Of a stretch of 58,274 nt of DNA, positions 1-7,422 are shown piece by piece. The stretch is taken from assembly GCF_000428825.1 (NCBI RefSeq), contig NZ_AUAR01000023.1, positions 1 through 58,274 on the forward strand, given 5' to 3'. The notes beneath the pieces are model-generated. The model saw only the letters and a program-made list of their open reading frames with translations. It did no database searches and was not told the origin of the DNA. Numbering within the stretch: the stretch's first letter is position 1; each line of letters begins with the position of its first letter. The position numbers and the translations under genes are program-made. The DNA comes from Desulfomicrobium escambiense DSM 10707 (GTDB lineage: Bacteria > Desulfobacterota > Desulfovibrionia > Desulfovibrionales > Desulfomicrobiaceae).

Positions 1-60
1 GGCTGGGAGGAGGTCGAGGAAGGCGAAGTGGCCGAGTGGGAAGTGCACGAGAAACGCTGA
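1..60 (+). CDS. C-terminal end of an unidentified CDS (5' part outside window)
   Basis: The first frame is open from base 1 to a TGA at 58-60 and encodes 19 residues ending in WEVHEKR, rich in Glu. A good intrinsic terminator starts 23 bases after the stop, which supports this being the real end of a plus-strand gene. Too little is visible to name it. Confidence 0.5.
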   Translation, partial: GWEEVEEGEVAEWEVHEKR

Positions 61-82
61 GTCATCCTCCCCTCAAGACTCG

Positions 83-119
83 GGGCCGCGGTCCGTCGCC
101 TGACGGGCCGCGGCCCTTT
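83..119 (+). terminator. Intrinsic terminator after the truncated first gene
   Basis: A 15-bp stem (83-97 with 102-116, one G-T pair) closes a four-base loop and is followed by TTT. It separates the truncated gene from the nucleotidyltransferase unit. Confidence 0.7.
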
Positions 120-142
120 CCGTCAGGAAATGTCGCCGCGTC

Positions 143-171
143 TTGCCAATAAGGCTGGAACCTGCTAGAAA
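143..171 (+). promoter_or_regulatory. Candidate sigma70 promoter for the nucleotidyltransferase gene
   Basis: TTGCCA (143-148, 5/6 to the -35 consensus) is 17 bases from TAGAAA (166-171, 4/6 to the -10 consensus). It lies in a locally A+T-rich stretch between the terminator and the GTG start at 232. Inferred from sequence only. Confidence 0.4.
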
Positions 172-231
172 AATTCGTGTTTTTTTGGATAATGGCTTTT
201 TGCGCACCTTCAGCTGTACGACGGATGACGC

Positions 232-687
232 GTGAATCTTTTCGAGGAATTCGAGCAGCTTGTCAGGGAGTTTGAAGAAGAGAAGATCGGATACGTCGTG
301 GTCGGGGCCGTCGCGATGGCCTTCCACGCGGAACCGAGATTCACGCAGGATATCGATATTCTGCTCGAACCTGAAGATTTTGCGAAGATGAAAGGGATAC
401 TCGAGGTACACGGTTATATGGAATCGGCGCAGCCGTGGACGTTTCAGAGCACGCCTTTGACGCTCCGGCGATTCCTCAAGGTCGAAGGACGCGACCAGAT
501 GATCATGGATATCCTTCTGGCAGGAGACGCCAGACATCTGGAAATAATCCGCAACGCCCTCGAAGCTTCCGGCGAGGGATGCACCGTCAGGGTCGCCAGC
601 AGATCGGACCTCATCTGGCTCAAGAAACAAAGAGGTTCGCTGCAGGATCTGGCCGATATCGAGAGGCTGTCGGATGAAGGACGTTGA
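232..687 (+). CDS. Nucleotidyltransferase-fold protein (AbiEii/DUF6036-like)
   Basis: A 151-residue protein resembling the minimal nucleotidyltransferases found in toxin-antitoxin or abortive-infection modules. Visible motifs are VVGAVAMAFH (the usual GG/GS loop, here GA) followed by RFTQDIDILL, the paired acidic residues that bind metal in this fold. The C-terminal part (RSDLIWLKKQRGSLQDLADI) matches the usual end of the family, where the helix reads K-x-x-x-R-x-x-D-x-x-D. GTG at 232 is the only reasonable start. A micro-ORF overlaps the last 14 bases, suggesting translational coupling. Substrate unknown; family assignment by motif recognition, not by search. Confidence 0.75.
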   Translation: MNLFEEFEQLVREFEEEKIGYVVVGAVAMAFHAEPRFTQDIDILLEPEDFAKMKGILEVHGYMESAQPWTFQSTPLTLRRFLKVEGRDQMIMDILLAGDARHLEIIRNALEASGEGCTVRVASRSDLIWLKKQRGSLQDLADIERLSDEGR

Positions 688-853
688 AACCGTCATGAGA
701 CAGCTCAGCAACCTGTACGAGTTCAACAGAAGATTGAAGACGTTCAGGCTGCATGAGCCTCGCTCCGCCGATGTTCGGATTCCGAAGCAAGAGCAGAGCC
801 GTATTTCGCCGAGGCCCCCCCAGGGGTCGGACGCGGCCGACCCCGCGTCCTGA
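674..853 (+). CDS. Small ORF coupled to the nucleotidyltransferase
   Basis: ATG at 674 lies inside the end of the preceding gene (14-base overlap, +1 frame) and the frame runs to TGA at 851-853, 59 residues. The first 28 residues (MKDVETVMRQLSNLYEFNRR and on) look like an amphipathic helix. The rest (PRPPQGSDAADPAS) is low-complexity, as if the original gene had been truncated and read into intergenic DNA. It could be an antitoxin-like partner or a remnant of a longer second gene. It ends 3 bases before the convergent ECF gene. Confidence 0.4.
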   Translation: MKDVETVMRQLSNLYEFNRRLKTFRLHEPRSADVRIPKQEQSRISPRPPQGSDAADPAS

Positions 854-856
854 AGT

Positions 857-1354
857 TCAGATCATTCCCGTCTTTTTGAGGGCCTTGGCGGCGAAGAGGC
901 CGCCGACGGCGCCGCCGACGGCCTGGATCACGTTGGCCAGGATCTCGGCTGCCGCGCCCTGCAGGCCGATGTTGGGCATCAGCGTCTCCCCGATGAAATA
1001 CACGGCGATCATGGCCAGGCCGCCCAGGGCGAGCATGGCGTACTGCGTCGCGCCGCTGCGGCTTGCCGCCAGCGCGGCCAGGGCCCCTTCGGCGCCCTTG
1101 GCCAGGAAGGTCAGGGGGGCAAAGACGGCGAAACCGCTCAGGACGTCGGCCAGGGCCGAGCCCACGCCGCAGGCGGCCAGGGCCCAGAGCGCCCCCTGGC
1201 GCGGGTTCATGAAGCCCAGCACCAGGCCGCCGAAGACCACGGCCACGTCGCCGACGTTGAAGTAGCCCCGGCTGGGCAGGGGGATGCGCACGAAGAGGGT
1301 CGTCAGGCAGGCCAGGGCCGTGATGGACAGGGCGGCGATGCGGATATTTTTCAT
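857..1354 (-). CDS. ECF transporter S component (substrate-binding membrane protein)
   Basis: A 165-residue, almost entirely hydrophobic protein with about five to six membrane segments. The stretch RIPLPSRGYFNVGDVAVVFG followed by a Gly/Ala-rich helix is typical of the ECF riboflavin/thiazole-type S components (PF07155-like). These proteins bind a vitamin or similar micronutrient in the inner membrane and are toppled by the EcfT-ATPase module. It is the last gene of a four-gene operon and overlaps ecfT by 4 bases (ATGA). The substrate cannot be read from sequence, and no riboswitch was seen upstream of the operon. Confidence 0.8.
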   Translation of the reverse strand: MKNIRIAALSITALACLTTLFVRIPLPSRGYFNVGDVAVVFGGLVLGFMNPRQGALWALAACGVGSALADVLSGFAVFAPLTFLAKGAEGALAALAASRSGATQYAMLALGGLAMIAVYFIGETLMPNIGLQGAAAEILANVIQAVGGAVGGLFAAKALKKTGMI

Positions 1355-1947
1355 GGTTCCTTCCTCAGGTGACGGGTTCGGTGGTCAAAAAGCTCCAGGG
1401 TCTTCTCGGTCTGCTGGTAGATGCTGATGTAGGCGGCCACGATGACCCCGCAAAGCCGCAGGAACCTTCCGCTGCGGCGGCCGGCGAAGTGCGGCGTCAG
1501 GTCCATGAAGAAGCGGTAGCGGTGCAGCAGGGGCGTACATTTTTCCATGACGGCCTTCAAGACGATGGCGTTGCGGCGGGCCCCCGGACGCAGTGGCAGG
1601 CCCAAGATGTCGCGGAAGGTGATGGATTCCAGGCCGAGCTTCACGATCAAAAACGAGTTGGGGAAAACGAGGGCCTTGAGCAGGGAGTCGCTCAGCCAGT
1701 CTGTGCGGCCCATGAGGCCCGCCCATTGAAAGGCCGCTCCGAAGGCCAGCAGGGAGAGGACGAAGGGCAACACGAAGAGGATCGACCGCCCTGCGGAGCG
1801 CAGGCCGCCTCTCCACGCCGCGGCGGTGAGCAATATGGCCAGCAGTGCGGCCTGCAGCTCCATCCGCCCGTACCAGGGGCCGAAGACGAAGAGCCCGAAG
1901 AAGGCCGTCAGCAGGCCGAAAATCGTCAGCACTTTCAGGCCGGCCAC
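1351..1947 (-). CDS. ECF transporter transmembrane coupling protein (EcfT/CbiQ-like)
   Basis: A 198-residue membrane protein with several N-terminal hydrophobic helices (to about residue 110) followed by a basic cytoplasmic C-terminal region. That region contains RYRFFMDLTPHFAGRRSGR and a final RTRHLRKEP. EcfT normally couples the ATPases to the S component through Ala-Arg-X motifs in this region; here the family match is weak and the protein is shorter than the usual ~260 residues. It overlaps the upstream ATPase gene by 13 bases and the S-component gene by 4, so position supports the call as much as sequence does. Confidence 0.65.
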   Translation of the reverse strand: MAGLKVLTIFGLLTAFFGLFVFGPWYGRMELQAALLAILLTAAAWRGGLRSAGRSILFVLPFVLSLLAFGAAFQWAGLMGRTDWLSDSLLKALVFPNSFLIVKLGLESITFRDILGLPLRPGARRNAIVLKAVMEKCTPLLHRYRFFMDLTPHFAGRRSGRFLRLCGVIVAAYISIYQQTEKTLELFDHRTRHLRKEP

Positions 1948-2459
1948 AATCGCTCCAAGCCGAGGTGAACCTCCGGCCTTCCGGTGTCAGGACGCACGAA
2001 GGCCAACTCGAAGCCGCCCGGCAGGTCCGGCCTGACTTCCGGCCTCTCCAGGTGCGAGACCTGCACGACCCAGCCGAAACGTGACAGATTCAGGGCCGTG
2101 AACTGGGGGGCGGTCAGGTATTTGTCGAATTCGTCGAGAATGACGACCTCCCTGCAGCCGCCGGCCTCGATCCAGGCCGAGGCCAGGTCGGCCAGCCCCT
2201 GCGGCGCTTCGCGGCCCATCAGGGCCAGGGTGGCGCGCATGGTGTTCTGCTGCAGGTCCATGTCTTGGGCCAGGTACAGCAGGCAATGCCGGTCCCGCAG
2301 GTTCGGGATGAGTACGTGCTCCAGGAAGGTCGTCTTGCCCGCGCCGTTCTCCCCGCGCAGGCGCAGCCAACTGCCCCGCGGCAGCCGCAGGTCGCGGGCG
2401 AGCTCGTAGCGCAGGCCCGCGTGGGGGACGGGGTAGGTTCCGGCGGCGAGTTCAAGCAT
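1935..2459 (-). CDS. ECF ATPase subunit with Walker A/B but no signature motif
   Basis: A 174-residue ABC-type ATPase. Walker A is GENGAGKT (residues 36-43), the Q-loop glutamine lies in LYLAQD (Q65), Walker B is VVILDE (105-110) and the H-loop is VVQVSHLE (H136). The helical subdomain between Q-loop and Walker B is very short and has no LSGGQ-type signature. The usual length for EcfA is ~270 residues. The missing signature is present in the gene immediately upstream, which overlaps this one by 8 bases, so the two subunits can form one complete composite ATP site. The ATG at 2459 was used. Confidence 0.75.
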   Translation of the reverse strand: MLELAAGTYPVPHAGLRYELARDLRLPRGSWLRLRGENGAGKTTFLEHVLIPNLRDRHCLLYLAQDMDLQQNTMRATLALMGREAPQGLADLASAWIEAGGCREVVILDEFDKYLTAPQFTALNLSRFGWVVQVSHLERPEVRPDLPGGFELAFVRPDTGRPEVHLGLERLWPA

Positions 2460-2916
2460 GGCGGCCTGCCGGTTGCGGTACGTTCCCGACCAGGGTGAAG
2501 AGTCCGGCCTCGGGCAGGACGGTCGCGAAGCGGTCCAGGAGAAGCTCCCGGTTGCGCGGCGAGAGGGTTTCGAGGACGTGCACGAGCAGGATGCGCAGGG
2601 GCCGGCGCGGCAGCAGCGCCATGAGGGTCAGGCAGCAGATGATGGCCTGCTCCCCGCCGGAATAGGACGAGAGCAGCCGGCCGGGTTCGAGGCGGACGTC
2701 GAACAGGGCGCACTCCCGGCCGATGTCCGCGAGGGCTCCATCACCGGCGCCCAGGAGCAGGAGCTCGTCCTCTAGGGTAGTACCGACGAAGAGGTTGTGC
2801 ATGTCGATGACGCAGTGGTCGCGGCCATGCTCGGCCAGGGTCGAGGCGTTCACGGGCGTCCTGCGCTCTTCGGATTTGTTTTGCTTGACTGGCACGGGCG
2901 GTGATGCAATGGACAT
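2452..2916 (-). CDS. ECF ATPase subunit with signature motif but no Walker A
   Basis: Up to 154 residues, aligning only to the second half of an ABC ATPase. A Q-loop-like stretch (HNLFVGTTLEDELLLLG) is followed by a clear signature YSGGEQAI (residues 85-92). The Walker B position reads RILLVHVLETLS with both acidic residues lost, and the H-loop reads TLVGN. No P-loop exists in or before this frame, so it cannot hydrolyse ATP alone. The ATG at 2916 has a poorly spaced Shine-Dalgarno; a GTG at 2853, preceded by AGGA, may be the true start and would leave room for a promoter facing the divergent NUDIX gene. It is the first gene of the ECF operon. Confidence 0.65.
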   Translation of the reverse strand: MSIASPPVPVKQNKSEERRTPVNASTLAEHGRDHCVIDMHNLFVGTTLEDELLLLGAGDGALADIGRECALFDVRLEPGRLLSSYSGGEQAIICCLTLMALLPRRPLRILLVHVLETLSPRNRELLLDRFATVLPEAGLFTLVGNVPQPAGRHA

Positions 2917-2921
2917 GCTCC

Positions 2922-3371
2922 ATGATCAAATACAGTATCGAATGCTGGCTCTACAACGATCTCCAGGATCGCTTCCTGTTGCTGCGCTGTCCTGTGACGC
3001 ACCGTCATGATGAATACTGGCAGCCCGTGACCGGCGGCCGCAACGCCGAGGAACCCTGCGTCGAGGCCTGCCTGCGCGAAGTGGAGGAGGAGACGGGGGT
3101 GAAGCTCGCCGCGGAGATGCTCGAAACCGTCATCACGGAATTCTGCTTCTGCATTCCCGAGGCCCGCATCGAACTGCGCAAGCCCGTGTATCTGGCGCGA
3201 GTGCGCAGCGAAAAGGTCGTCCTCTCGTCCGAGCACATCGGCTACTACTGGTTCGACGCCGTGGACGTGGAGGGGCACCTGCACTGGGACTCCAACAAGG
3301 AATCCTTCCGTCAGGTCCTGGCCTTCACCCGCCGTCAGTTCGCTCCCGCCCCCAGCAATCCTTCCAGATAG
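2922..3371 (+). CDS. NUDIX hydrolase (NudB-like)
   Basis: A 149-residue protein with a canonical NUDIX box GX5EX7REVEEETGV (GRNAEEPCVEACLREVEEE within it), which coordinates magnesium to cleave nucleoside-diphosphate linkages. The opening IKYSIECWLYND and the motif YWQPVTGG resemble dihydroneopterin-triphosphate pyrophosphatase-type NUDIX enzymes, but substrate cannot be fixed. ATG 2922 is preferred over an in-frame GTG at 2901 because the protein then begins at the first beta strand. It is divergent from the ECF operon, and its last 37 bases overlap the convergent tlpA-like gene. Confidence 0.75.
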   Translation: MIKYSIECWLYNDLQDRFLLLRCPVTHRHDEYWQPVTGGRNAEEPCVEACLREVEEETGVKLAAEMLETVITEFCFCIPEARIELRKPVYLARVRSEKVVLSSEHIGYYWFDAVDVEGHLHWDSNKESFRQVLAFTRRQFAPAPSNPSR

Positions 3372-3901
3372 GCGACGATCTCGTCGCCGTCCCAGCGGGC
3401 CATGCCCGTGTGCCCGAAAACCACCCTGCCCTGGCGGTCGAAGATGTACGTCGTCGGCAGCCCTTCGGCCTGCAGCTCCGGCGGAACGGGCGGGTCGAAG
3501 ACGTACAGCGGCATGTCGAGTTCCCTGGACATCGGGTGGGCGCGCACTTCGTCCGCGGTCTCGGTGCTGATGCACAGCACCCGCAGGCCGTCGTTCCCCT
3601 CGAATTTCTTCCACAGGTTCCGCAGGTACGGCATCTCGGCCCGGCAGGGCGGGCACCACGTGGCCCAGAGGTTCACGACCACGACCTTGCCGCGCAGGTC
3701 CGCAAAGGACGTGGCGCGGCCGTCCAGGTCCGAGAAGGTCCCCTGCAGGTCGCCCAGGCGGGTCATGGCCGGGATTTCCGGTTGGCCGGCGTCGGCGTCC
3801 ACGAAACCGCCCATGATGACCAGGGCCGAAGCGGCTTCCAGCAGAAGCAGGGCGACGGCGGCGAAAAGGGCGCTTAGGGCCGGGTGTTTCGGGATATTCA
3901 T
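3335..3901 (-). CDS. TlpA/ResA-type membrane-anchored thioredoxin
   Basis: 188 residues: an N-terminal hydrophobic anchor (about 8-30), then a thioredoxin fold with the active site WCPPC (C83, C86) and a cis-Pro loop GLPTTYIFD. Such proteins reduce disulfides outside the inner membrane, for example apocytochrome c haem-binding cysteines or other secreted thiols. The start codon overlaps the stop of the pseudouridine synthase gene (ATGA), so the pair is probably co-translated. The role in cytochrome c maturation is inference; these organisms are cytochrome-rich. Confidence 0.88.
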   Translation of the reverse strand: MNIPKHPALSALFAAVALLLLEAASALVIMGGFVDADAGQPEIPAMTRLGDLQGTFSDLDGRATSFADLRGKVVVVNLWATWCPPCRAEMPYLRNLWKKFEGNDGLRVLCISTETADEVRAHPMSRELDMPLYVFDPPVPPELQAEGLPTTYIFDRQGRVVFGHTGMARWDGDEIVAYLEGLLGAGAN

Positions 3902-4668
3902 GCGGTTTCCCCGCCCTGGGTCAGGCCAAGGCTCGTCTTGAGGCTGCTGATTTCACCGGGGCTCAGGTGACGCCATTTCCCGGACGGCAGATCGCCCAGG
4001 GTCAATGGGCCCAGCCCCACCCGCTTGAGGCGCAGGATGGTCAGCCCGAGGTCGCGGCACATGCGCCGGATTTGACGGTTGATCCCCTGGCGTAGGGTCA
4101 TGCGCAGCAGGGTGCCGCCGCTGCGCAGCGTCCTCGCCTCGACATCGACCGGAGCCAGCGTTTCCCCTTCCTCAAGCCGCATGCCCCGGCGCATGACGTT
4201 CAGGGCATCCTCCGTCACGGCCTCGCGCACCAGCGCCTCGTAGAGCTTTGGGTGTTCGTGGCTGGGGTGGGTCAGGCGCAGGGTTACCTCGCCGTCGTTG
4301 GTCAGCAGCAGCAGCCCTTCGGACATGAAGTCCAGACGCCCTACGGGAAAGAGTCGAAGCCCGCGCAGTTCGCGCGGCAGCAGATCGAGGACCGTCTGAC
4401 GGCCCTGGGGGTCGCGGACCGTGGTCACCGTATGCGCGGGCTTGTGCAGCATGATGTACACGGGCTCCGCTCCCCGGCCCCCTCTCACGGGCTTGCCGTC
4501 GCAGGCCACCTCGTCCCTGCCGGGGACGACCCGCGTGCCGGGTTCGCGCTGGACCGCGCCGTTGACCTTCACCCGGCCGGCCTGGATCAGGGCGTCGGCC
4601 CCGCGGCGCGAGGCGATGCCGGCATCGGCCAGGTACTTGTTCAGACGCACTTCACTGTTTTCGGACAT
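3898..4668 (-). CDS. rluB: rRNA pseudouridine synthase, RsuA/RluB family
   Basis: 256 residues from ATG 4668. An S4 RNA-binding domain (RLNKYLADAGIASRRGADAL) is followed by the catalytic domain with GRLDFMSEGLLLLTNDG, where D113 is the catalytic aspartate, and the family's late motif GINRQIRRMC. These enzymes isomerise one uridine in rRNA (RluB: 23S U2605; RsuA: 16S U516). The single S4 domain and overall pattern fit RluB better, but the exact target is uncertain. A longer TTG-initiated reading was rejected because the S4 domain begins right after this ATG. Overlaps tlpA by 4 bases. Confidence 0.85.
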   Translation of the reverse strand: MSENSEVRLNKYLADAGIASRRGADALIQAGRVKVNGAVQREPGTRVVPGRDEVACDGKPVRGGRGAEPVYIMLHKPAHTVTTVRDPQGRQTVLDLLPRELRGLRLFPVGRLDFMSEGLLLLTNDGEVTLRLTHPSHEHPKLYEALVREAVTEDALNVMRRGMRLEEGETLAPVDVEARTLRSGGTLLRMTLRQGINRQIRRMCRDLGLTILRLKRVGLGPLTLGDLPSGKWRHLSPGEISSLKTSLGLTQGGETA

Positions 4669-4728
4669 GGGCGAAGCAATAGGGAGAAGCCTGCCGCAGG
4701 GCAAGCAAAAAGGCGTACGCCTGCCTGC

Positions 4729-5358
4729 TCAGTCCGTCTTTGCGGCGCGTTTCAGGTCGATATGCTCGGGTTCCTGATGCCGCCCGCCGCGCGTGATGCA
4801 CAGATCGTGGATGAGGCCGTTGGCGATGGAGTAGATCCAGCCGTGCAGGTAGAGCGAGCGGCCCCGGTCCCACGCCTTGCGCACGATGCTGTTCAGGGCC
4901 AGGTTGCGGACCTGCAGCTTGACGTTGAGTTCGCACATGTCGTCCAGGTTCGGGGTCCGGTTGCGCTCCATGAGGTCCTTCACGTTCTCCAGCCAGTGGG
5001 CCAGCAGGCCCGGCGTCTGGTCCTTGAGCACGGCATCGATGCCGCCGCAGCCGTAGTGGCCGCAGACGATGATGTGCTTCACCTTGAGCACGTCCACGGC
5101 GTACTGCAGGACGCACATGAGGTTGATGTCCGTGTTGATGACCTGGTTGGAGATGTTGCGGTGCACGAAGACCTCGCCCGGCATGACGCCGATGAGCTGG
5201 TCCGCGGGCACGCGGCTGTCGGAGCAGCCGATCCACAGGAACTTGGGCTTGTGCTGGCTTTCCAGCTTGCTGAAGAAGCCCGGGATGTTCTTTTCGACAT
5301 TCTGGGCCCAGATCCGGTTATTGTCGAGCAGCTTTGCTATTTCTTTCATGTCGCTCAT
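4729..5358 (-). CDS. can: Beta-class carbonic anhydrase
   Basis: 209 residues. The zinc site of beta-carbonic anhydrases is complete: CSDSR (C45, D47, R49) and HYGC (H101, C104), plus RNISNQV for the conserved dimer core. It interconverts CO2 and bicarbonate in the cytoplasm, useful to an organism that both fixes and releases CO2 during lactate/pyruvate oxidation or carboxylation. Length is typical of the E. coli Can type. ATG at 5358 is used; an in-frame ATG at 5349 with a GGA upstream is an alternative. Monocistronic, with the divergent radical SAM gene 273 bases away. Confidence 0.95.
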   Translation of the reverse strand: MSDMKEIAKLLDNNRIWAQNVEKNIPGFFSKLESQHKPKFLWIGCSDSRVPADQLIGVMPGEVFVHRNISNQVINTDINLMCVLQYAVDVLKVKHIIVCGHYGCGGIDAVLKDQTPGLLAHWLENVKDLMERNRTPNLDDMCELNVKLQVRNLALNSIVRKAWDRGRSLYLHGWIYSIANGLIHDLCITRGGRHQEPEHIDLKRAAKTD

Positions 5359-5631
5359 CCGTTGGGTGTTGGGGTTTGAGCTGATTGTTTACTCATTTTG
5401 TCCGGATCGCGCAATGCGTCTCCCGTACCCGGAAACGATCGGGGCGCGCGGGTGGACCAAAAGCTCGGGTTGGGCTAGACTGGCGGTCCGCCGGCCGGAA
5501 TCGTCGCCCTGTCCGGCAGCGCCGAACGCCATCCCGAAGGCCGGCGCAGCCCCCTCCACGCCTTTGCACCATGCTCCCTTCCGCCGGCATCGGGCGTGGA
5601 ACCCGTTCACTTCAATCCCTGTGAGGTTGCA

Positions 5632-7422
5632 ATGAACTTGGACAGTTCACGCTGGTGTGCGCGCACCTTCGCCGCGGAACACGCCGGCATCCTCGACGTG
5701 GTCAGGACCGCCGACGACCTCGACGCGGCGCGCAAGGCGCTCTACCTTTTCGTGACCGAGCGTCAGTATCTGATTCTTTTCGACGACCGCGAGCATACCG
5801 CCTTCGAGATGACCGTAGCCCGCGACTGTGCCCGCGTTCTGCGCGCGGTCCTGGCCAGAGGTTCCGACGCGCGGGCCGGCTTCAGTGTGGCCCAGGCCCT
5901 GTGGGACCTGGCCCGCGGCGTGGAGCGCCCGGACCTGAAGGCCGGCTTTTTCGCCGAGCTGTCGCACCTTTTTCACGGACTGAACGGCACCCCCCTGGGT
6001 GTAACCCCTGAACCCTCGACCCTGGACGAGGTCAGCGGGCGCGAGGCGGCCGTGGCCAGGTCCCTTGAACTCGACCGCATCTGGGAGGGCATCGCGCAGG
6101 CCATGGCGCGCTACGAATCGGGCCTTGAAGCGGCCTCTTTGGATCGGCGCAGGCAACGCAGACAGGAGCTCCAGACCCTGTTCAACGCATCGGACCCTGA
6201 GTGGGAGGACTGGCACTGGCAGGTGCGCAACATCATCGAGGACGCCGAAGGCCTGGCTGCGGCCGTCAACCTGCGCGATGACGAGCGCGCCGCCGTGGAG
6301 CGGGCGGTGCGGACGAAGCAGCCCTTCGGGATCACGCCGTATTACGCCTCCCTCATGGACAGCGACCCCGCGATCGGCCGCGACCGGGCCGTGCGCGCCC
6401 AGGTCATCCCACCGGCCTCCTACGTGGAGTGCATGGCCGTCCACGGCGACAGCCGGGCCGAGGTCTTCGACTTCATGCGCGAGGCCGACACGTCGCCCGT
6501 CGATCTCGTCACGCGGCGCTACCCGGCCATCGTCATCCTCAAGCCCTTCAACACCTGCCCGCAGATCTGCGTCTACTGCCAGCGCAACTGGGAGATCGAG
6601 CGGGCCATGGCGCCGGGGGCCATGGCGTCCCGGGCCGACCTGGAGCGCGCCGTGGGGTGGATCCGGCGGCACCCGGCCATCAAGGAGGTCCTGGTCACGG
6701 GCGGCGACCCGCTGGCCATGGGCGACGGGCCCCTAAAGCGCATCCTGAAAAGCGTCGCGGACATCCCCCACGTGGAACTCATCCGCATCGGCACGCGTAC
6801 GCCCGTGACCCTGCCCATGCGCATCACCTCGGATCTGGCCCGCATGGTCGGTTCCTTCCGCGAGCCGGGTGTGCGCGACGTCTGCCTGGTCACCCACGTG
6901 GAACATGTCTCGGAAGTGACGCCTGAGTTCGTGGCCGCCGTGGACAGGCTCAAACGGCAGGGGGTGAGCGTCTACAACCAGCTCGTCTTCACGTTTTACG
7001 TCTCCCGGCGTTTCGAGGCCGCGGCCCTGCGGCGCCTCCTGCGCAGATGCGGGGTGGAACCCTATTACACCTTCGCGCCCAAGGGCAAGGAGGAGACAGA
7101 AGCCTACCGCGTGCCCATCGCCCGCATCCTGCAGGAGCAGCAGGAGGAGGCGCGCCTGCTGCCGGGCATGCGCCGCACCGACGCGCCCGTCTTCAACGTG
7201 CCGGGCTTGGGCAAGAACCATCTGCGCGCCGCGCAGAACCGCGACGTGGTGTCCATCCTGCCCGACGGCTCGCGGGTCTACGAGTTCCACCCGTGGGAGA
7301 AGAACATCGTCGAGCGCGACTCCTACATCGGGCAGGACGTGCCGATACTGACGTACCTCGAACGCATGGCCGACTGCGGCGAGGACCCGGACGAGTATTC
7401 GAGCATCTGGTACTATTATTAG
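5632..7422 (+). CDS. KamA-family radical SAM aminomutase, probable glutamate 2,3-aminomutase
   Basis: 596 residues from ATG 5632 (GAGG six bases upstream). The radical SAM cluster motif is CPQICVYC (C309, C313, C316) and a PLP lysine lies in NVPGLGKN. In lysine 2,3-aminomutase two aspartates (D293, D330) hold the substrate amino group. Here the aligned positions read K484 (YYTFAPKGK) and N522 (VFNVPG), the Lys/Asn pair reported for clostridial glutamate 2,3-aminomutase. The likely product is beta-glutamate, a known compatible solute. About 185 N-terminal residues precede the region shared with lysine aminomutase (416 aa) and have no function I recognise. Family call firm, substrate call inferred. 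Confidence 0.8.
   Translation: MNLDSSRWCARTFAAEHAGILDVVRTADDLDAARKALYLFVTERQYLILFDDREHTAFEMTVARDCARVLRAVLARGSDARAGFSVAQALWDLARGVERPDLKAGFFAELSHLFHGLNGTPLGVTPEPSTLDEVSGREAAVARSLELDRIWEGIAQAMARYESGLEAASLDRRRQRRQELQTLFNASDPEWEDWHWQVRNIIEDAEGLAAAVNLRDDERAAVERAVRTKQPFGITPYYASLMDSDPAIGRDRAVRAQVIPPASYVECMAVHGDSRAEVFDFMREADTSPVDLVTRRYPAIVILKPFNTCPQICVYCQRNWEIERAMAPGAMASRADLERAVGWIRRHPAIKEVLVTGGDPLAMGDGPLKRILKSVADIPHVELIRIGTRTPVTLPMRITSDLARMVGSFREPGVRDVCLVTHVEHVSEVTPEFVAAVDRLKRQGVSVYNQLVFTFYVSRRFEAAALRRLLRRCGVEPYYTFAPKGKEETEAYRVPIARILQEQQEEARLLPGMRRTDAPVFNVPGLGKNHLRAAQNRDVVSILPDGSRVYEFHPWEKNIVERDSYIGQDVPILTYLERMADCGEDPDEYSSIWYYY

Follow-up and report, generated by a model that had tools for sequence, protein, structure and literature searches.

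Complementary half-ATPases carrying the motifs for a single composite ATP site in a putative ECF-type importer of Desulfomicrobium escambiense

Four tightly packed genes occupy positions 857-2916 on the minus strand of a stretch of DNA from Desulfomicrobium escambiense DSM 10707 (contig NZ_AUAR01000023.1, positions 1-58,274; the whole of these 58,274 nucleotides is referred to as the window, and all coordinates are window positions). In order, they encode two ATPase subunits of the ATP-binding cassette (ABC) type, called here subunit 1 and subunit 2, a hydrophobic EcfT-like protein and an S-component. Judging from its sequences, the operon is probably a dedicated importer of the energy-coupling factor (ECF) type, the ATPase pair of which would be reduced, in a complementary manner, to one composite ATP site. 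The same arrangement was found in 26 genomes, 19 from Desulfomicrobiaceae and seven of Desulfobacterales type (these seven include two named Desulfobacterales and two Deltaproteobacteria), which are referred to as carriers.

Results

The motifs of one ATP site are divided between two subunits

Subunit 1 (2452-2853, minus strand, 133 amino acids from a GTG start) corresponds to the back part of EcfA and is a signature half-ATPase without a P-loop. Its signature YSGGEQ lies at 2647-2664 (minus strand), where S65, G66 and G67 are invariant in 23/23 aligned sequences; the other invariant columns among these 23 are L21, E30 and S98. The pattern [YF]SGG was found in subunit 1 of 26/26 carriers and a P-loop pattern in 0/26. 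At 2554-2592 (minus strand) lie the strand of a lost Walker B, which reads ILLVHV compared with LLLDEP in EcfA, and the D-loop position with the invariant Ser98. The place of the Walker B Asp-Glu pair is taken by VH, and in relatives by NN, VR, RN or other pairs, as aligned by eye. No conserved His was seen at the H-loop position of subunit 1, the alignment again being judged by eye. An initial annotation of this DNA had called the Walker B and H-loop of subunit 1 degenerate, in agreement with the loss of the acids and the lack of a kept His.

Subunit 2 (1935-2459, minus strand, 174 amino acids) is a P-loop half-ATPase without a signature. Located on the same strand are its Walker A, GENGAGKT (2331-2354), and three elements that are invariant in 22/22 aligned sequences, namely the Q-loop Gln65-Asp66 (2262-2267), the Walker B with the catalytic Glu, LDE (L108 D109 E110; 2130-2138), and the H-loop His136 (2052-2054). 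Over these 22 sequences the invariant columns are G36, N38, G39, G41 and K42 (all Walker A), E47, Q65, D66, L78, W96, L108, D109, E110, D112, V134 and H136. The pattern G.NG.GK[ST] was found in subunit 2 of 26/26 carriers, and the ABC signature pattern [LFY]SGG[QEM] in none of the 26; subunit 2 of G009 spans two contigs, which gives 27 rows for 26 genomes. In G480, subunit 2 has an SGG triplet that falls outside the signature pattern, and in G620, which is outside the alignment, MDE stands in place of LDE. The distance from Walker A to the Walker B Asp is 72-75 residues in 22/22 sequences, compared with 127 residues in canonical template ATPases (7/11, those with all patterns readable), i.e. 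subunit 2 is short by 52-55 residues between the two motifs.

In sequence, nothing is missing from the predicted site composed of the subunit 2 core and the subunit 1 signature, and its motifs do not vary, while both predicted contributions to the other site are gone, subunit 1 being without a P-loop and the Walker B acids and subunit 2 without a signature. Since every motif among the invariant columns belongs to the same site, the pair appears to have kept what is needed for just one composite site. This is what the initial annotation had proposed, and its description of the split (YSGGEQ without Walker A in one subunit; Walker A, Q-loop, Walker B and H-loop without a signature in the other) is seen directly in the sequence, with [YF]SGG and Walker A divided in the same way in 26/26 genomes. 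Neither subunit therefore has the full set of Walker A, signature and Walker B, and at about 133 and 174 amino acids neither is a full-length nucleotide-binding domain.

Both subunits resemble ECF ATPases in profile and predicted fold

As a template, 11 ATPases encoded beside EcfT genes in the same phylum were picked by their Walker A and signature patterns. With hhalign, subunit 1 aligned to columns 84-187 of the 267 columns of this EcfA template, signature on signature, with a probability of 93%, and subunit 2 aligned to columns 26-197 with a probability of 98%, its Walker A, Q-loop, Walker B and H-loop each falling on the corresponding template motif. The profile search suggested along with the initial annotation thus placed both subunits in register on EcfA-type ATPases. 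Pfam assigned the subunit 1 of the window to no family, gave weak matches only for 23 subunit 1 members (SMC_N in three, ABC_tran in one, best E 0.03), and gave sub-threshold matches only for the subunit 2 of the window, AAA_22 and ABC_tran first. In a search of PDB sequences, the subunit 1 profile matched EcfA1 (4huq_B, residues 90-196) with an E of 0.001. Matches of subunit 1 to TAL effectors in PDB (best E 2e-8) were dropped as chance repeat artefacts, because they were made up of many tiny repeat matches with no single stretch passing alone.

AlphaFold2 monomer models reached a mean pLDDT (predicted local distance difference test) of 91.2 for subunit 1 and 92.1 for subunit 2, and an ABC-type ATPase fold was found in both. 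The models were compared with the PDB chains ranked highest by Foldseek. The best structural match of subunit 1 was the putative CbiO 2pjz (Z 8.7, root-mean-square deviation (rmsd) 3.6 over 123 residues), with PhnK, EcfA, MalK and the Rad50 C-lobe (1f2u_D, Z 7.5, 95 residues) following at lower scores; all 50 rows are judged to be of ABC type, in part by title. Over its whole length, the subunit 2 model matched ABC ATPases with a Z of 12.2 (161 residues at rmsd 3.9; 158 residues at rmsd 3.0) and EcfA-A' (4hlu_A) with a Z of 10.4. Some of these comparisons speak less clearly for an EcfA origin: among PDB sequences, SMC proteins match subunit 1 somewhat better than EcfA1 does, though along fewer residues (best 2.6e-4), the structure matches of subunit 1, with a Z of about 8, are at a level possible for a common arrangement, and two RecA-type helicases also match the subunit 2 model, with a Z of 10.5.

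The split is conserved in Desulfomicrobiaceae and in Desulfobacterales-type genomes

When subunit 1 and subunit 2 were searched separately, the same 19 of 101 genomes matched. These are 16 in the genus (own genome included) and three of six others in the family, i.e. 19/22 Desulfomicrobiaceae, and the split pair was found in 0 of the other 79 genomes searched (17 listed, all from the same order; 62 not listed). Strict co-occurrence of the pair across the Desulfovibrionales had been named initially as a check; the strict pairing was borne out, and the presence throughout the order was not. A scan of contigs gave nine loci, five of them contigs of the 19 genomes and four from metagenome-assembled genomes (MAGs) of Desulfobacterales or Deltaproteobacteria. 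The profile of the EcfT-like protein matched one of 395 genomes of the phylum (own genome) and seven of 194 relatives of the MAG G480; all seven have the split, and three are new carriers, so that 3/26 carriers were found via the EcfT-like gene alone. The system belongs to Desulfomicrobiaceae and some Desulfobacterales-type genomes, not to Desulfovibrionales at large.

In 26/26 carriers the split pair is adjacent and stands with the EcfT-like gene on the same strand and in the same order. The S-component is present wherever the contig reaches, the contig of G481 ending before it. No full-length or fused version of the ATPases was found in the 26 carrier genomes (EcfT-like profile searches covering the 395 phylum genomes and the 194 relatives). 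Comparison of the four window genes with six or seven relatives each gave ratios of non-synonymous to synonymous substitution (dN/dS) of 0.07-0.35 (26/27 pairs with defined dS), and for the two ATPase subunits the values were 0.16-0.35.

Relation of the module to ECF transporters

The S-component (857-1354, minus strand, 165 amino acids) belongs to the known S family PF07155 (74.5 bits against a cut-off of 26.7). The EcfT-like protein (1351-1947, minus strand, 198 amino acids) is in no Pfam family, and its C-terminal part is weakly similar to the coupling-helix region of EcfT. Several observations weigh against ECF membership in the strict sense. A PF02361 (CbiQ) match was found in 0/20 members of the EcfT-like protein, the single PF02361 match of the own genome being elsewhere, and Ala-Arg-Gly was found in 0/20 (residues after 120). 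Residues 153-187 aligned to the coupling-helix end of 28 EcfT sequences with a probability of 3.8% (E 0.011), compared with 0.2% for the S-component, which was used as a control. AxxxA, described as a docking motif in helix 1 of S-components in PMC11109136, was found in 2/17 S-components (first 40 residues), and that of the window is without it. A search of PDB sequences with the EcfT-like and S-component profiles gave no matches.

Arg190 of the EcfT-like protein is kept in at least 90% of the members; it lies just beyond the weak EcfT alignment, which ends at residue 187, and comes near the EcfT Arg if this alignment is extended by eye. Position and the weak coupling-helix similarity tentatively suggest that the third gene encodes an EcfT. 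The module would work like an ECF transporter, and strict membership is not claimed because the third gene fails to match CbiQ and is without Ala-Arg-Gly, and because AxxxA is found in 2/17 S-components. ECF systems with a dedicated S-component are classed as 'group I'.

S-components related to that of the window (E 1e-8) occur in seven other genomes among 198 searched, and the loci of those seven (about 3.5 kb each) gave no match to the profiles of subunit 1, subunit 2 or the EcfT-like protein. Of these PF07155 proteins (L103-L109), four stand beside a gltX-like gene, as seen by eye, and they may share another ECF module.

Discussion

A proposed single-ATP engine and its alternatives

The motifs, their invariance, the complementary deletions, the synteny, the purifying selection and the predicted monomer folds suggest how the pair might work. 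Subunit 2 would supply the P-loop, Q-loop, Walker B, catalytic Glu and switch His, and subunit 1 the signature with its helical subdomain, which would cap the gamma-phosphate, together with the D-loop Ser. One ATP at the sole complete site would close a 1:1 heterodimer. As it closes, the coupling helices of the EcfT-like protein would shift and the S-component would be freed, events which PMC10368641 describes for canonical ECF motors. Hydrolysis of ATP at the single site would then reset the motor. On balance we favour the reading that the two complementary half-ATPases form a natural single-ATP ABC-type engine of an ECF-type importer, in which a second site could never form, and which was kept since before the split between Desulfomicrobiaceae and the Desulfobacterales-type genomes or spread between them.

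An alternative is a 2:2 assembly, in which subunit 1 would be the detached helical subdomain of subunit 2 and two composite sites would give an ordinary two-site motor. Most of the helical subdomain, which is kept in subunit 1, is indeed missing from subunit 2, and subunit 1 resembles the Rad50 C-lobe, which is expressed separately. However, the strands of Walker B and the H-loop, and the helix that precedes Walker B, are already present in subunit 2, so that subunit 1 would add second copies of its core strands instead of supplying missing ones, and one EcfT-like gene and one S gene per operon would fit a 1:1 pair; we regard such an assembly as unlikely. It seems still less probable that the pair binds ATP without hydrolysing it, or acts as an ATP-gated regulator, transport not being driven by ATP. 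Such a role would suit the absence of a second site and the crippling effect that, according to PMC10368641, changes of the catalytic Glu have in either canonical ECF subunit; yet Glu110, His136, the Q-loop and the signature are invariant and are not obviously required for binding alone. That an ordinary EcfA gene has decayed into the two halves, or that they arose by a frameshift or an assembly error, might be supposed from the motifs that each half lacks compared with ordinary EcfA proteins. This explanation is refuted by the results, since the same split is conserved in 26/26 genomes from two groups and under purifying selection, and the predicted folds are confident. Full-length relatives and a frameshift or assembly error had been named at the outset as what would undo the split; both were looked for, neither was borne out in the 26 carrier genomes, and the split stands.

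Comparison with known systems

The module is like ECF transporters (EcfA-EcfA'-EcfT-S) in having two ABC-type ATPase subunits, a membrane scaffold and a PF07155 S-component. It differs from them in that each ATPase has half of the motif set, with one ATP site, and in that the scaffold is not recognised as EcfT and is without Ala-Arg-Gly and the AxxxA of helix 1 is mostly missing. With the heterodimeric ABC transporters that have a degenerate site (TM287/288, CFTR, TAP) it shares one competent and one incompetent site. Those transporters have two full-length domains, and their weak site retains a P-loop and binds ATP; in the present pair, one subunit has no P-loop region at all and the other no signature. 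The lobes of Rad50 and SMC proteins are similar in that a signature-bearing C-lobe exists as a separate fold, and subunit 1 matches both. Rad50 lobes complete one domain, the C-lobe completing the domain of another chain; in contrast, subunit 2 already has the full core.

In the ECF motor of Lactobacillus delbrueckii, according to PMC10368641, changing the catalytic Glu of either ATPase severely impaired growth in vivo; once purified, the Glu-mutant motors showed ATPase activity not above background and no folate transport. Canonical ECF motors appear to need both sites, because each single Glu mutant was crippled in that report. If the single-site reading is true, a motor in which no second site can be built would be a clear exception to this need, and the two-site requirement would become testable. 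It would further mean that closing the dimer with a single ATP can be sufficient, which bears on the old question of the number of ATP sites that an ABC motor requires, and it would offer a minimal system in which each motif is present once and every mutation is unambiguous. No such split is described in the titles and abstract openings of the listed open-licence PMC matches, a set to which subscription papers on the ECF family do not belong.

A possible thiamin pyrimidine cargo

Genomic context makes it about evenly balanced whether the cargo is hydroxymethylpyrimidine (HMP, the thiamin pyrimidine) or a close relative. At locus L064, a thiamin pyrophosphate (TPP) riboswitch (84.3 bits) is followed on one strand by genes for an ATPase, a permease and an SsuA-like binding protein and then by the four-gene module. 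The best models of the three intervening genes are taurine, SaoP and sulfonate, all below cut-off; these genes may encode a thiamin-precursor transporter, because the TPP riboswitch heads the operon. CytX (TIGR02358, above cut-off in both) is the next, divergent long open reading frame beside the module in L051 and L054. TPP riboswitches are also present in L053 and L054, so that a search of 16 loci gave three riboswitch matches. ThiC (PF01964) is absent from 7/7 Desulfobacterales-type carriers and present in 122/187 non-carriers among the 194 relatives, with a one-sided p of 0.0008 that includes no correction for kinship, takes the genome set of the EcfT-like search and that of the ThiC search as identical, and concerns 194 relatives whose completeness is not given.

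In the own genome (completeness 100), a search with PF01964 gave no ThiC. A ThiG-like gene and ThiM/ThiE-like genes, named by eye from their translations, lie next to its two TPP elements, one of which falls slightly short of the cut-off. Because of the absent ThiC and of these genes at TPP elements, the organism appears capable of producing the thiazole moiety and dependent on pyrimidine taken up from its surroundings, and is predicted to be a thiamin pyrimidine auxotroph. The module may also explain how sulfate reducers without ThiC acquire their thiamin pyrimidine.

The thiamin assignment is weakened by several results. No TPP riboswitch was found near the module in window 1-6000, where there was one sub-threshold, unrelated match, and thiamin-related neighbours occur in some relatives only. 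ThiC was found in 11/17 Desulfomicrobiaceae carriers searched (one a fragment) and was lacking in six, own genome included, and 2/3 non-carriers of the family have it; in these 20 genomes (G008 and G009 were left out as incomplete) ThiC shows no clear association with the module. A one-site ECF-like motor with a cargo other than a thiamin precursor, e.g. a pterin or nucleotide-like compound, is a substantial possibility, though not the one we would choose. The retention of ThiC in those 11 carriers would agree with it, as would a divergent NUDIX hydrolase gene outside the transporter (2922-3371, plus strand), which neighbours the module in 18/19 Desulfomicrobiaceae carriers. The closest NCBIfam model of this gene is dihydroneopterin triphosphate diphosphatase (NudB-like), at 47.7 bits well below the cut-off of 103. 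On the other hand, a NUDIX gene was not found beside the module in 7/7 Desulfobacterales-type carriers, and the riboswitches, CytX and the ThiC pattern in the Desulfobacterales-type genomes point back to a thiamin precursor.

Gene order, the start of subunit 1 and neighbouring genes

The open reading frames of subunit 1 and subunit 2 overlap by 8 bases in the window, and the same overlap is present in 16/16 genomes of the genus. In the other ten carriers, the spacing of the first two genes, counted from the start of the profile match, ranges from an overlap of 20 to a gap of 62. Subunit 1 had been taken initially as 154 residues from the ATG at 2916, which appears too long. That ATG is 5 bases from the ATG at 2922 of the divergent NUDIX gene (a start chosen by us). 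In 8/22 relatives one has to go 16-22 residues further into the reading frame to reach the nearest start codon, and in G007 an in-frame TAA separates the two candidate starts. For these reasons the GTG at 2853, giving about 133 amino acids, is the likely start; the ATG is common to two close relatives, L028 and L029. A scan for promoters and terminators gave nothing clearly above chance.

A small nucleotidyltransferase-like gene is located at window 232-687 (NTP_transf_5, 32.8 bits against a cut-off of 31.2; AbiEii sub-threshold). Among 27 loci searched, many of them too short to show it, such a gene stands beside the module only in L046. Further along the window, a long open reading frame at 5596-7422 looks, by eye, like a radical SAM protein of the lysine 2,3-aminomutase type.

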